A stretch of 64,000 nt of DNA from Oscillospiraceae bacterium (GTDB lineage: Bacteria; Bacillota; Clostridia; Oscillospirales; Acutalibacteraceae), in assembly GCA_902792905.1 (NCBI GenBank), contig CADBBH010000006.1, positions 62,001 to 126,000 of the forward strand, in the 5' to 3' direction. Positions 8,958 to 16,882 of this stretch are shown piece by piece. Position 1 is the first letter of the stretch; the number at the start of each line of letters is the position of its first letter. The notes under the pieces were generated by a model. It ran no database searches, was not told the DNA's origin, and saw only the letters and a program-made list of their open reading frames with translations. A program made the position numbers and the translations under genes.

Positions 8958-8959
<2 letters not shown>
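8931..8959. terminator. Bidirectional terminator between argS and atpC
   Basis: AAAAAGACCTGC and GCAGGTCTTTTT form a perfect 12-bp stem around a CGGA loop, with A- and T-runs on either side so that it works on both strands. It overlaps the atpC stop codon. Confidence 0.93.
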
Positions 8960-11439
<2,480 letters not shown>

Positions 11440-11441
11440 TC

Positions 11442-13160
11442 TCAGATCTCCGTTTTATCCGCTATTCTAAGTATTTCTTCCTTGATTTCCGGTGAATACG
11501 CACCAACTTCGTCAATGCTGCTGCAAATATTCTCCGCTTCTTCTTCAACCGCGCAGCATACAGCTTCAAGATAAGTGTCAATATCCTTATCGGCTGTATT
11601 TTTTAATCTACCTCCGAGCGCGGTTGTGAGTATGATTACCTGCCTGTGTCTCGGTATGGGACTGAACTGTTTCTGCCTGAGTATATGCATAAGTCTTTTG
11701 CCGTATTCAAGCTTTTCCTTGGAGGCGTCGTCAAGGTCACCGGAAAACTGCGTGAATGCAGCCATTTCTCTGTATTGTGCAAGGTCGAGCTTGAGCGTGC
11801 CCGATGCCTTTTTCATCGCTTTTGTCTGCGCGTCTCCGCCGATACGCGAAACAGATATACCTACATTTACCGCAGGCCTCTGACCGCTGAAAAACAGGCT
11901 GCTCTCAAGGAATATCTGCCCGTCCGTAATCGAAATGACGTTGGTCGGAATATATGCTGATACGTCGCCTGCCTGGGTTTCGACTATCGGAAGAGCGGTC
12001 ATACTGCCGCCGCCGAGTTCATCGCTGAGATGAGCCGAGCGCTCGAGCAGACGCGAATGAATATAGAATATATCTCCGGGGAACGCTTCTCTGCCCGGCG
12101 TTCTGCCGAGAAGAAGAGAAATCGTTCTGTACGCGACAGCATGCTTTGACAAATCATCATAGACTATCAGCACGTCCTTGCCCTGCGACATAAAGTATTC
12201 GCCGAGCGTGCAGCCCGCATATGGCGCTATGAATTCGAGCGGAGCCGCGTCGCTGGCCGGGCAGTTGATGACTATTGTATAGTCCATAGCTCCAAATGCT
12301 TTAAGTTTATTTACAAGGGAAGCGACGGTGCTCGCCTTCTGGCAGATTGAGACATAGATGCATATCACATCTTTGCCTTTCTGATTGATAATCGTGTCGA
12401 GTGCGATTGCCGTCTTACCTGTCTGCCTGTCGCCGATAATGAGTTCTCTCTGACCTCTGCCTATCGGGAACATTGAGTCAATTGCAAGTATTCCTGTCTC
12501 GAGCGGCGTGTTGACAGGCTGCCTGTCAATTATTCCCGGCGCACGCTTTTCTATCGGAAGATACTGCTCAGGTTCAATTTCTCCGAGACCGTCAACGGGG
12601 TTTCCGAGCGAATCTATGACCCTGCCGATAAAGTTTTCACCAACGGGCATGCCGGCTATAAAGCCGGTTCTTACTGCTTTGTCTCCGGCTGAAACGAATT
12701 CGTCGCGGTCAAAGAGAATACATCCGATTTTATCTTCCCTGAGATCCTGAACAAGTCCCTTGACGCCCGAATCGAATACCAGTATTTCATCGTATTCCGC
12801 GCTTTTGAGACCTGTGATGAAAGCAATTCCGTCTCTGATGGAATCTACTGTGCCGATTTCCTCACTGACAGCGTGAAGCTTGAAATCATCAACCACTTTG
12901 CGCATAAGCGGCATAACTGATTTCTTTGAAGAATCAAGCAAATCGAGCTTTGAAGTCAGCTGATGAAGACGCCCTTCAACAGTCCAGTCAAAGAGTTTGT
13001 TGTCAACCTCAAGCTTGAATCCGTTTTTGATGTTTTCGTCAAAAACAAATTTCAGTTCCTTGATTTTATATCTTTTTGCTATCGTTTCTTTTATTCTTTC
13101 AAACTGTTCTTTTGTCGGCTCTTTTGAGGAATAGAGAAACGCGGTCTTATTACGAGCCAT
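11442..13160 (-). CDS. atpA: ATP synthase alpha subunit with fused delta C-terminal domain
   Basis: The 572-residue product is about 70 residues longer than usual. Residues ~83-572 are a complete alpha subunit: alpha N-terminal helix and barrel, Walker A GDRQTGKT near 243-250, PGREAFPGD, and the C-terminal helical domain. Residues ~14-75 match the C-terminal domain of the delta (OSCP) subunit: [15 protein letters not shown], a strand ending [11 protein letters not shown] (delta: D-P-x-L-x-x-G), then [16 protein letters not shown] (delta: GDxxxDxSxxGRLxxL). The start at 13160 is supported by GGGGAG seven bases upstream, and no stop interrupts the frame. No separate atpH occurs in the operon, and delta's N-terminal six-helix domain is absent. 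Inferred role: the fused domain binds the b stalk and so replaces delta. An internal ATG (12914) that would give a normal alpha has no clear SD. Confidence 0.95.
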
Positions 13161-13161
13161 A

Positions 13162-13638
13162 TCAGTTCTCCCCGTTTCCGAAAGCGTTCAGGAAGGTCTC
13201 ATAGGCATCCTCACCGTCGATAACCAGCTTCTGCGCTGCTTCTTCGGCGATGTGTCTTATTTCTTTATTTGCGGATTTTATCATGGAATCCTTTTCTTTG
13301 GCTGCTCTCTGCTTTGATTTTGCAATTATATCCGCCGCTTTTGTCTGTGCGTCGGATACGATTTTTTCTGCTTTGATCTGCGCCTCATTGACAGCTTCGG
13401 CTTTTATTCTCTTTTCCTCAGCCTTAAGCGCAGTCAGCTTTTCCTCATATTCATGTTTTGTCTTTTCCGCTTCGCTCAGCGTGGTATTTGTCTTTTCCTC
13501 AAGCTCGTCATAGTATTTGTTTCTGTTGTCCATGAATCTGCGTACGGGCTTGTATAGAAGAAAATACAATGCGGCAAACAGAATCGCAAAATTCAGCATG
13601 TGCAGCAGTATCTGCTGAATATCAATGTTTAACGGCAT
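13162..13638 (-). CDS. atpF: ATP synthase b subunit
   Basis: Peripheral stalk subunit linking the membrane a subunit to F1. The 158-residue protein has one membrane helix near residues 10-30, followed by a long Lys/Glu/Ala-rich helix with the heptad character expected for the b dimer. The start has GGGAGA upstream. In a normal operon atpH would lie next; here the fused alpha gene starts one base after the stop. The C-terminal ~20 residues ([20 protein letters not shown]) are where delta's C-terminal domain normally docks, and so where the alpha-linked delta domain should bind. Confidence 0.96.
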
Positions 13639-13656: not shown

Positions 13657-14025
13657 TTAAAGGACGAATATAATCAGAATTGCTACGATAAGACCGTAAA
13701 TAATTGCGGTTTCTATGAAGACGAGACCGAGCATTACGTTGGTTCTGATATTTCCGGCCGCTTCGGGCTGGCGTGAAATGTTGTCGGAACCGCTCTTGAT
13801 TGCGATTGCCATTGCTATTGCGCCGGTTGCCGCGGCTACCGCTATAAGAACGGCCGCGGCTACCGCTTTGGTATTAGTGGTTTCAGCGGCTGCGTCTTCG
13901 ACAGTTTCTTCCTGCTGAACGGCTGTCTGTGCGGCTTCTCCGGCTGCGAAAGCGGGGAGTGAAACCGCGGTGATTATAAGCATTACCGTAAGAACGGCAA
14001 ATATTGCTTTAAGATACTTTTTCAT
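13657..14025 (-). CDS. atpE: ATP synthase c subunit with signal-peptide-like extension
   Basis: The c subunit forms the ion-carrying rotor ring. The 122-residue product is ~40 residues longer than usual. Residues 1-28 look like a signal peptide (MKKY, hydrophobic core, ending PAFAA). Residues ~29-52 are an acidic Ala/Glu linker. The hairpin follows: first helix from ~54, the polar loop with SRQPEA, and the second helix with the ion-binding glutamate in FIETAIIYGL. The first helix lacks the glutamine typical of Na+ rings, but a threonine follows the glutamate, so coupling ion is uncertain (H+ slightly favoured). AGAGGT precedes ATG 14025, so the long form is translated. The c-ring N-terminus faces outside, which fits a cleavable signal. 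It overlaps atpB by 17 bases. Confidence 0.95.
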   Translation of the reverse strand: MKKYLKAIFAVLTVMLIITAVSLPAFAAGEAAQTAVQQEETVEDAAAETTNTKAVAAAVLIAVAAATGAIAMAIAIKSGSDNISRQPEAAGNIRTNVMLGLVFIETAIIYGLIVAILIIFVL

Positions 14026-14869
14026 GTTTAGCTGACCTCTTTTCGGATTTTGTTTTCTTTTCTTTGATGTGCGGCGGTTCTGTGGATTCGCCGTAGAATA
14101 TGGATACGAGCATCGTCAGAACATATGCCTGAATCAGCGCGTGAAGCAGGGTGAACATCACTCCGACCACTACGGGAATGACTATGCTTGTCAGAGTGAA
14201 ATAATAAACAAGCTCTGTCACCAGCGCGCCCGAGAGCAGCGCTCCGAATAAACGGAAGCTCATTGAAATCGGGAGCGAAAAATCTTTCAGCGCCTTGAAT
14301 GCGCCCTTCGGACCGTTTATAAACAGGCCGCCGAGCAGAATCACTCCGTAGGAGAAAACGCCCATTGCAATCGCTCCGTTAATATCTGACAGAGGTGCGG
14401 GAAGCGCAATCGGCCTGCCGGATACGGTTATCGCCTGGATACCGAACAGTTCAAATATCGTGCTCGTGAATATGTACAGCCCTGCGGCAAATATATAGCC
14501 GCCGATAAAGACCGGTCTGTGGCCGCTGTTTTCCTTCGCGAGAGAAGAGAATAGGCTGACTGCTTTTTCGAGCAGATATTGGAATCTTCCCGGCTTTATC
14601 GTGAATCTGGGAATAACAAATATCCTGACAATAACGGCAAAAAGAATGAGCGTACAGGATACCGCCAGCGCGGAAACAAGTCCGGGATTTACCTCAATCA
14701 AGCCAAAAAGATTAATCTTTCCGCTCTCATGAAGCACGGCATCCCGCATCACTTCCTTGATTGGCTCCTCGTCATTCCGCCCGCCGCCGGTCAGTATGAT
14801 TCCGGTTATCAGCCCGGCGATTATCAGGGCAAATATACAGGCGCTGACTATACGCCGTTTTTTACTCAA
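14009..14869 (-). CDS. atpB: ATP synthase a subunit
   Basis: Membrane stator that carries ions to the c ring. The 286-residue protein has an N-terminal membrane segment (residues ~7-27), an outside loop with an amphipathic stretch, then four or five membrane helices. The essential stator arginine lies in SFRLFGALLSG, and the C-terminal helices contain LLHALIQAYVLTML. The tail is strongly basic. The residue after LFG is alanine where most a subunits have asparagine. It is the first gene of the operon; no atpI is seen upstream. Confidence 0.95.
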   Translation of the reverse strand: MSKKRRIVSACIFALIIAGLITGIILTGGGRNDEEPIKEVMRDAVLHESGKINLFGLIEVNPGLVSALAVSCTLILFAVIVRIFVIPRFTIKPGRFQYLLEKAVSLFSSLAKENSGHRPVFIGGYIFAAGLYIFTSTIFELFGIQAITVSGRPIALPAPLSDINGAIAMGVFSYGVILLGGLFINGPKGAFKALKDFSLPISMSFRLFGALLSGALVTELVYYFTLTSIVIPVVVGVMFTLLHALIQAYVLTMLVSIFYGESTEPPHIKEKKTKSEKRSAKHEKVS

Positions 14870-15014: not shown

Positions 15015-16112
15015 ATGCCTTTCAGAATAGAACGAAATGATATTACAAGAATCATAGTGGATGCCATAGTGAACGCCGCAAATAATTCCCTGCTCGGAGG
15101 CGGCGGAGTTGACGGCGCGATTCACGCCGCTGCAGGTCCGGAACTTCTCGAAGAATGCAGGACTCTCGGCGGCTGTGAGACGGGCGACGCAAAACTGACA
15201 AATGGCTATAAACTGCCTGCCAAATTCGTTATTCATACAGTCGGCCCGGTGTGGCACGGAGGTGGCAACGGCGAGGAAGCAAAACTTCGTTCATGCTACC
15301 GCCGCTGTCTTGAGATTGCCGATAAAAACGGGCTTGAGAGCATTGCTTTTCCGCTGATTTCAGCCGGAGTTTACGGTTATCCGAAAAAAGAGGCATTCAA
15401 AATCGCGGTTGATGAGATAAGGTCTTTTCTCAGGAATCACGATATGGAGATAATTTTGGTTGTATTCGACAGAAATTCTCTTTTTATCGGCGATGAAAGA
15501 TTCCGTGAAGTTCAGGGATTCATAGACGCTTTTTATGTTGAAATACCGAGAAGAGTTTATTCCTGCGCTGCAAACGAACCCATTGGTACGGCAGGCAGAG
15601 AAGCACCGGCCAAAAAAACGGCAAAACCGCATAAGAAACAAAAGCGGGGACTTTTCAGCAGAAAAGAAAGCAGAGATTACGGCAAAGAGGAAGATTCTAT
15701 TGATGACTTTCTTCCCGGCGATGATTTATCCGAAGAATCCGTACCGCTTCCCTGTGCCGCGATGCCGACTTTTACCGTCGATGAATCTTTCAGCGAAATG
15801 CTCCTGCGTCTAATTGATGAAAAAGGGTTGAAGGATTCGGAATGCTACTTCCGCGCCAATGTCGACCGTAAGCTTTTCTCAAAGATAAGATGCAATAAGG
15901 ATTACAGGCCAAGCAAGGAAACCGCCATAGCTTTCGCTATAGCTCTGGAACTTGATCTCAATACGGCAGGGGAGCTTCTTTCAAAAGCGGGCTATACGCT
16001 CTCCAATTCAATTCTTTTTGACGTAATCCTCCGCTATTTCTTCGATACCAGGAACTATAATATATTTGAAATCAACGAGGTTCTTTTCTCATTTGATCAG
16101 AAGTGTCTTTAA
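15015..16112 (+). CDS. Macrodomain protein with C-terminal HTH-like domain
   Basis: Residues ~1-170 are a macrodomain of the MacroD/YmdB type, which binds ADP-ribose and removes it (or O-acetyl groups) from substrates. The catalytic-site segments [18 protein letters not shown], the later HTVGPVW, and ISAGVYGYP are all present, so activity is likely. A Lys-rich then acidic linker (~185-245) leads to a helical C-terminal domain (~250-365). Its [20 protein letters not shown], then [15 protein letters not shown], look like an XRE-type HTH, suggesting DNA or protein binding. AGGAG precedes the start. A vWA protein follows. The pair may act in stress response or ADP-ribosylation control; this is inferred. 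Confidence 0.85.
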
Positions 16113-16156: not shown

Positions 16157-16190
16157 TGTGATTGTAAGCCGATGAAAACTTACAATCACA
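16157..16190 (+). promoter_or_regulatory. Long inverted repeat before the vWA gene
   Basis: TGTGATTGTAAG and CTTACAATCACA are perfect 12-base arms around a 10-base loop, followed by TTTATGTTTT and then the GGAGG of the vWA gene. It could be a terminator or attenuator for read-through from the macrodomain gene, or an operator. Confidence 0.6.
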
Positions 16191-16213
16191 TTTATGTTTT
16201 GGAGGACAAAGTT

Positions 16214-16882
16214 ATGAAAAACAACATCACGGAAGTAGTATTCATTCTTGACAGAAGCGGCTCGATGGGCGGCCTCGAATCCGATACCATCGGCGGATTC
16301 AATTCAACGCTGAAAAAGCAGAAGGAGCTCGACGGCAAGTGCCTTATCACCACTGTTCTTTTTGATGATCAGTACGAGATAATTCACGACAGAGTCGATG
16401 CACGCGAAGCGAAAGAAATTACGGAAAAGGAATATTTCGTTCGCGGTTGTACCGCCCTTGTTGACGCTATCGGCAAATCAATTACCCATATTGAGAAGAT
16501 TCATAAGTATTCGCGCCCCGAGGATATTCCCGAGCATACGATGTTCATCATCACAACCGACGGTATGGAGAATGCCAGCAGGGAGTATTCCGCCGATAAG
16601 GTCAGAAAAATGATTGAGCAGAAGAAGAAAACGGGCTGGGAGTTCCTCTTCATCGGAGCGAATATTGATGCTGTGGAAACCGCGAGGAATTACGGCATTG
16701 ACGCCGATAAGAGTGTCGATTATGTGAACGATTCTCCCGGCGTCTCGAATGTTCACAGCTCTATCTCAAAAGCCGTCTGCTGCATGAGGACTATGGGCAG
16801 CGTCGGCAGAGAGTGGTCTGAAGAAATCAGCGAAGATTTCAACAAAAGAAGTGGCAAAAAGACAAGAAAAAGTAAAAAGTAA
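16214..16882 (+). CDS. von Willebrand factor A domain protein
   Basis: A 222-residue cytoplasmic vWA protein. Start ATG 16214 was chosen because GGAGGA lies eight bases upstream; the ORF extends to 16172, but that stretch lies inside the inverted repeat. The metal-ion-dependent adhesion site is complete: DRSGSM (residues 13-18), the threonine in GCTALVDAI, and TTDG. Such domains bind partner proteins through Mg2+. The fold resembles TerY-like and other bacterial single-domain vWA proteins linked to stress and nucleic-acid processing. The last ~15 residues are Lys/Arg-rich. It follows the macrodomain-HTH gene on the same strand, which suggests joint function. Confidence 0.88.
   Translation: MKNNITEVVFILDRSGSMGGLESDTIGGFNSTLKKQKELDGKCLITTVLFDDQYEIIHDRVDAREAKEITEKEYFVRGCTALVDAIGKSITHIEKIHKYSRPEDIPEHTMFIITTDGMENASREYSADKVRKMIEQKKKTGWEFLFIGANIDAVETARNYGIDADKSVDYVNDSPGVSNVHSSISKAVCCMRTMGSVGREWSEEISEDFNKRSGKKTRKSKK

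Follow-up and report, generated by a model that had tools for sequence, protein, structure and literature searches.

The window analysed here, a stretch of 64,000 nucleotides from an Oscillospiraceae bacterium (contig CADBBH010000006.1), carries on its minus strand an F-type ATP synthase (FoF1) operon whose atpA gene (11442..13160) is predicted to encode the stalk-binding C-terminal domain (CTD) of the delta subunit joined to the alpha subunit. The window enzyme appears to be a natural delta(CTD)-alpha fused FoF1, a known but barely explored kind, since natural delta-alpha fusions have already been pointed out in print: Ueno et al. (2025; PMC12229609) deleted the N-terminal domain of delta and fused its CTD to alpha in the FoF1 of Bacillus PS3 (PDB 9jc1), and they name Acidaminococcus fermentans and the UniProt entries G4Q3K6 and A0A1I2C5T3 as natural cases, asking for verification. 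An earlier note on this DNA had known of no published description, an opinion that does not stand; the paper of Ueno et al. was nevertheless the only one found to describe a delta-alpha fusion, in a search that mostly did not reach the subscription literature. What appears to be new here is a large clade that shares the fusion, a probable order of events in which fusion came before the N-terminal domain was lost, several independent fusions, and, in the same genus, a design in which b, the delta CTD and alpha form one chain (b-CTD-alpha), for which no description was found within the same limits.

The fused alpha subunit and its start site

The operon order, atpB, atpE, atpF, fused atpA, atpG, atpD and atpC with no atpH, was read correctly in the earlier note, as the open reading frames (ORFs) and Pfam matches of the window confirm; atpA starts 1 nt past the stop of atpF, with no gene in between. 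The 572-aa AtpA, read from an ATG, is matched at residues 7-72 by the Pfam OSCP family (PF00213) with 33.2 bits (E 6.8e-8, cut-off 22.3), and the matched stretch, positions 105-172 of a profile of 172, corresponds to the CTD only. Independently of Pfam, the delta model TIGR01145 (positions 103-172) matches residues 5-72 with 31.6 bits, a score expected to lie under the whole-protein cut-off of 57.5 because AtpA holds half of delta. The alpha barrel (ATP-synt_ab_N) begins at residue 98, and the F-type alpha model TIGR00962 gives 694.1 bits, above its curated threshold of 484.45. The best PDB match to the N-terminal profile is the engineered fusion 9jc1, colinear across the junction, and the structure predicted for the N-terminal residues from 71 sequences agrees with the fold of the delta CTD (predicted local distance difference test, pLDDT, 69.6; an earlier model from 24 sequences was poor, with 57.5). 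On these profiles and this model, the N-terminus of AtpA is the delta CTD, and the gripping N-terminal domain of delta is absent with a covalent link apparently in its place, both as the earlier note had supposed; the extent of the domain is nearer residues 5-75 than the 14-75 of that note.

Along the gene, the delta/OSCP CTD occupies approximately residues 1-75 (12936..13160), followed by a linker and the alpha N-terminal helix at approximately residues 76-99 (12864..12935, from alignments, with a helix at 82-92 predicted at low confidence) and by the barrel, nucleotide-binding and C-terminal domains of alpha at residues 100-572 (11445..12863; PF02874, PF00006, PF00306). The CTD carries the clade signature GF...YDWTxEGR, and the ratio of nonsynonymous to synonymous substitution rates (dN/dS) of the fused domain, 0.009-0.32 in 10 of 11 pairs with one pair saturated, points to purifying selection. 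The window protein departs from the canonical delta/OSCP, which has two domains and is a separate protein in single copy. It resembles the engineered PS3 fusion and A. fermentans in having the delta CTD directly on the alpha N-terminus, with neither the N-terminal domain nor a separate delta; unlike the engineered protein it is natural, has ~570-590 aa and belongs to another bacterial group. Like the mycobacterial b-delta fusion (e.g. 7jg5_d), it has a covalent link in place of a contact between stalk and F1; however, the mycobacterial delta is joined to b and not to alpha, whereas the window b is separate and its AtpF has no OSCP match in Pfam. The model for the b subunit of the N-ATPases, an alternate F1F0 (TIGR03321), likewise hits the delta CTD of AtpA, but the window alpha scores 595.5 against the cut-off of 750.5 of TIGR03324, and the operon order is different.

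Apart from the fusion, no delta above the cut-off was found in the window's own genome, which is 84.4% complete; PF00213 at E <= 10 gave two places: besides the fusion, a stretch inside a 1042-aa frame that scores 11.3 bits, far under the cut-off. A second OSCP above the cut-off was likewise found in none of the 14 fused relatives that are at least 95% complete (G007, G013, G015, G016, G019, G021, G025, G026, G030, G075, G090, G099, G112, G117), although the Pfam model has limited sensitivity for this domain, as the fused domain itself lies under the cut-off in five of them (G007, G021, G026, G030, G112). Three delta references gave no separate delta ORF at any of the 78 named loci described below. 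No unfused alpha was found by TIGR00962 in the window's genome, at the same completeness, and among 38 genomes (E <= 1e-60) each holds one alpha copy except G027, with two, and G028, in which one gene is split over contigs. Genome G144 (loci L210 and L212) holds a CTD-alpha operon plus a complete conventional operon with a separate delta.

The good Shine-Dalgarno (SD) sequence claimed for the long start is indeed present: GGGGAG (13168..13173) lies 7 nt upstream with a duplex energy of -7.9, where ~2.5% of background positions reach -7.6. The earlier note had also proposed an internal start at the ATG of 12912..12914, and it is conceivable that two forms of alpha coexist, a long one with the only delta domain and a short one made by internal initiation or proteolysis, so that each F1 again has one such domain. 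This ATG and the linker start codons of some genes would fit such a mixture, which we nonetheless regard as improbable. Among 99 CTD-alpha genes, 96 were usable (L070, L078 and L139 were dropped, the P-loop motif or enough sequence being missing), and these are not independent because some genomes are represented both by a G-handle locus and by a named contig. A linker start codon with an SD energy of -6 or lower is present in 17 of the 96, and for control windows taken from within these genes the figure is 163 of 1005; since the two rates are equal, dual alpha products are not supported. Furthermore, 36 of the 96 linkers have no start codon at all, none of six b-CTD-alpha genes has a linker start codon with an SD, and the window ATG, with an energy of -1.1, lacks an SD, is not conserved and is probably no start.

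Distribution and origins of the fusion

The same CTD-alpha ORF was present in 23 relatives that were fetched and read, out of a search of 119, and the profile of the fused N-terminus matched 78 loci in the named genome collection; the two sets overlap, and their counts are not additive. A single ORF spans the CTD and alpha at 77 of the 78 named loci, the other (L139) leaving its contig first, and 63 hold complete seven-gene operons; the alpha frame is broken at L127 and ends early at L132, both inside the contig, and some loci are cut by contig ends. The taxonomic survey suggested in the earlier note thus finds the fused region shared mostly among Clostridia. The hosts are for the most part metagenome-assembled genomes (MAGs) of rumen or gut Clostridia; a few MAGs carry the label Bacilli or Acholeplasmatales, and the hosts also include the isolates Eubacterium ruminantium ATCC 17233 and FB3002 and Lachnospiraceae AC2031, NE2001, XPB1003, AB2028 and LC2019. 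With MAG-type data and two defective alpha ORFs among 78 loci, a wrong start or an assembly error that joins a delta fragment to alpha might be suspected, but this has next to no probability: the same fused frame recurs in the window, in the 23 relatives and in isolates, E. ruminantium ATCC 17233 among them, the long start has a strong SD, the domain appears to be under purifying selection, and conservation of the frame rules such an artefact out.

In a phylum sample of 398 genomes, the fused profile matched 83 at E <= 0.001, and the fused frame is free of stops in seven, including the window's own genome (G000, G090, G204, G144, G252, G772, G816). In many others the match runs across stops between delta and alpha, so the step from separate genes to a fusion appears to be short. 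The architectures observed range from a full separate delta next to alpha (L003-L020), through stand-alone CTDs of 72-74 aa encoded between the b and alpha genes (L091, L092, L093) and fusions in which much of the N-terminal domain of delta survives (L087, 668 aa; L207, 690 aa; OSCP from profile position 26), to the CTD-alpha form of the window and the b-CTD-alpha form. The separate delta of L094 (3118-3597), with 159 aa, has an unusual, shorter N-terminal part and a length like that of the Chloroflexus delta. A plasmid match (H2, an S. aureus record) was discarded as a fusion, being an ordinary separate delta and alpha.

The b-CTD-alpha chain has 736-743 aa, begins with an apparent membrane helix and adjoins a separate b gene of 139-141 aa. 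It was seen in seven of the 119 relatives (G002, G011, G027, G033, G044, G091, G092; loci L088, L089, L090, L095, L096, L097, L023), five of which are of the window's own genus, and G027 holds a classic operon besides. In three of these chains Pfam gives OSCP matches of 45.5, 41.5 and 39.7 bits and ATP-synt_B matches of 23.8 (under the cut-off of 28), 32.5 and 29.2 bits. The design, seen in L088-L090 and L095-L097, combines the mycobacterial b-delta and the delta-alpha ideas. A b-CTD-alpha profile (A2, E <= 1e-10) matched 2 of 391 genomes of the class, and both candidates (L215, L216) were rejected because of a stop inside the frame.

An alpha tree, built by a quick method from 95 chosen rows, unites the 40 CTD-alpha rows in a single clade (99); the long fusions L087 and L207 together with L210 stand beside it (90), all 43 group together (99), and L020, which has a separate full delta, is next to this group (92). 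As the fusions that retain the N-terminal domain and L020 branch beside the CTD-alpha clade, the sequences suggest that in this main clade the fusion came first and the N-terminal domain was lost later. In the lineage of L083, a CTD-alpha row that pairs with a stand-alone CTD (99), the tree suggests that truncation of delta came first. L215 and the pair L208/L209 fall among separate-delta rows, and at the fewest, five changes between fused and separate states are needed. A single clade of all fused rows, and with it a single origin, was rejected in the approximately unbiased (AU) test (p 0.00019). One clade of CTD-alpha and b-CTD-alpha was not rejected (p 0.648), and a separate origin of the b-CTD-alpha form is therefore not claimed.

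Other genes of the operon and its surroundings

The remaining operon genes, all on the minus strand, could be assigned by Pfam. Subunit a is encoded by atpB (14009..14869; a 286-aa ORF listed with a TTG start; PF00119 62.3 bits, cut-off 33.9), subunit b by atpF (13162..13638; 158 aa; PF00430 49.5 bits), gamma by atpG (10594..11439; PF00231 240 bits) and beta by atpD (9197..10597; PF00006 250 bits). Subunit c, encoded by atpE (13657..14025; 122 aa; PF00137 at residues 56-118), has a signal-peptide-like N-terminal extension of ~50 aa, supported by alignment with relatives, and has AIAMAIAIK in place of most of its glycine-rich helix motif. In the alignment, at least 35 residues precede the first helix column in CTD-alpha operons (L063-L086, L099-L176), with the exception of L102, which is cut by a contig end, compared with 4-26 in operons with a separate delta; it is possible that the c-ring size has changed in CTD-alpha operons.

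The epsilon subunit (atpC; 8958..9200) has 80 aa and matches PF02823 only, at residues 6-80, lacking the inhibitory C-terminal helices; the engineered enzyme of Ueno et al. was also made without that domain. Of 17 relatives whose epsilon is complete, 12 have a short form (76-109 aa), whereas in most named operons the subunit has at least 133 aa. Outside the operon, a 365-aa protein (15015-16112, plus strand) has a Macro domain (164 bits) at its N-terminal end, while nothing matched its long C-terminal part, and the adjoining 236-aa ORF (16172-16882) looks von Willebrand A-like by eye, with no Pfam match.

Number of peripheral stalks and its consequences

By analogy with the engineered PS3 enzyme, it is rather likely that the fused alpha lets two or three b2 stalks, with their a subunits, dock per rotor. 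As every alpha carries its own stalk-binding domain, F1 would offer three equivalent docking sites. The N-terminal domain of delta lies on the threefold axis and, in the reasoning of Ueno et al., limits F1 to one stalk; with that domain gone, two or three b2 stalks, each with an a subunit, could attach to one rotor. Each additional a subunit would add to the ions that pass per turn, so that ATP might be made at a weak ion gradient, as in an anaerobe relying on Rnf; the window's genome encodes Rnf, a source of a modest ion gradient. The earlier note had found it puzzling that alpha is present three times, holding that only one of three stalk-binding domains should be used, and the results of Ueno et al. 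offer a plausible answer, because up to three are usable in the engineered fusion: on gels, the amounts of a and b were ~2.2 and ~1.8 relative to the wild type, the H+/ATP ratio increased to 5.8 from 3.0, and cryo-electron microscopy (cryo-EM) revealed particles with one, two and three stalks.

A related case may be provided by Chloroflexus aurantiacus, whose delta, like the window protein, has a shorter N-terminal part, unlike it being a separate protein of 157 aa. The PDB chains of its ATP synthase (alpha 18 and delta 12 in six entries, 9itj and related; a 36 and b 72 in 18 entries, compared with 18 a chains in 18 entries for E. coli) suggest two stalks, two a, two delta and four b per alpha3.

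Several points weigh against a multi-stalk native enzyme. Cryo-EM of the engineered enzyme gave 1.26 stalks per particle on average and only rarely three, a shortfall that the authors blame on grid loss, and the pumping activity of this enzyme was lower. The window's genome also has subunit D of a V/A-type ATPase, so that the fused enzyme need not be the main ATP synthase, and neither operon order nor gene dosage hints at additional a or b. The stalk number of the native enzyme is itself inferred, from sequence and the engineered analogue, and no paper was found on the Chloroflexus structure behind the chain counts.

With these points in mind, an enzyme with one stalk can be envisaged, in which one of three domains is engaged, because a single a/b2 unit is available or can be accommodated, and two stay idle, the fusion being a neutral loss of a stop codon that became irreversible once the N-terminal domain was lost. 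In conventional operons the end of delta, its stop and the start of alpha are often in one frame, so that stop loss suffices for a fusion; the crossing of stops by the fused profile in many of the 398 sampled genomes, the long fusions L087 and L207 and the low stalk occupancy of the engineered particles are consistent with this. We nevertheless consider it unlikely, as removal of the N-terminal domain was enough for extra stalks to bind in the experiments of Ueno et al., and as a delta without that domain recurs, in the stand-alone CTDs (L091-L093), in fusions of multiple origin and in b-CTD-alpha.

Returning to two or three stalks per rotor, the chances seem evenly balanced that this clade of F-type enzymes from gut anaerobes natively has two to three stators per rotor, convergent on the design of Ueno et al., and that in the b-CTD-alpha form the number is hard-wired, a membrane-anchored b and a delta domain on each of three alphas giving three stalks unless the chain is processed. 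The b-CTD-alpha variant makes the multi-stalk prediction far stricter, and cultivated carriers of the fusion (E. ruminantium ATCC 17233 and several Lachnospiraceae isolates) allow the published prediction to be tested. The number of stators per rotary ATP synthase, and hence of ions spent per ATP, has so far been regarded as settled, with one stalk per enzyme. Should fused enzymes have more than one, stalk number would join c-ring size in setting the ion/ATP ratio, and this would account for the ability of fermenting anaerobes to make ATP when ion gradients are very low.
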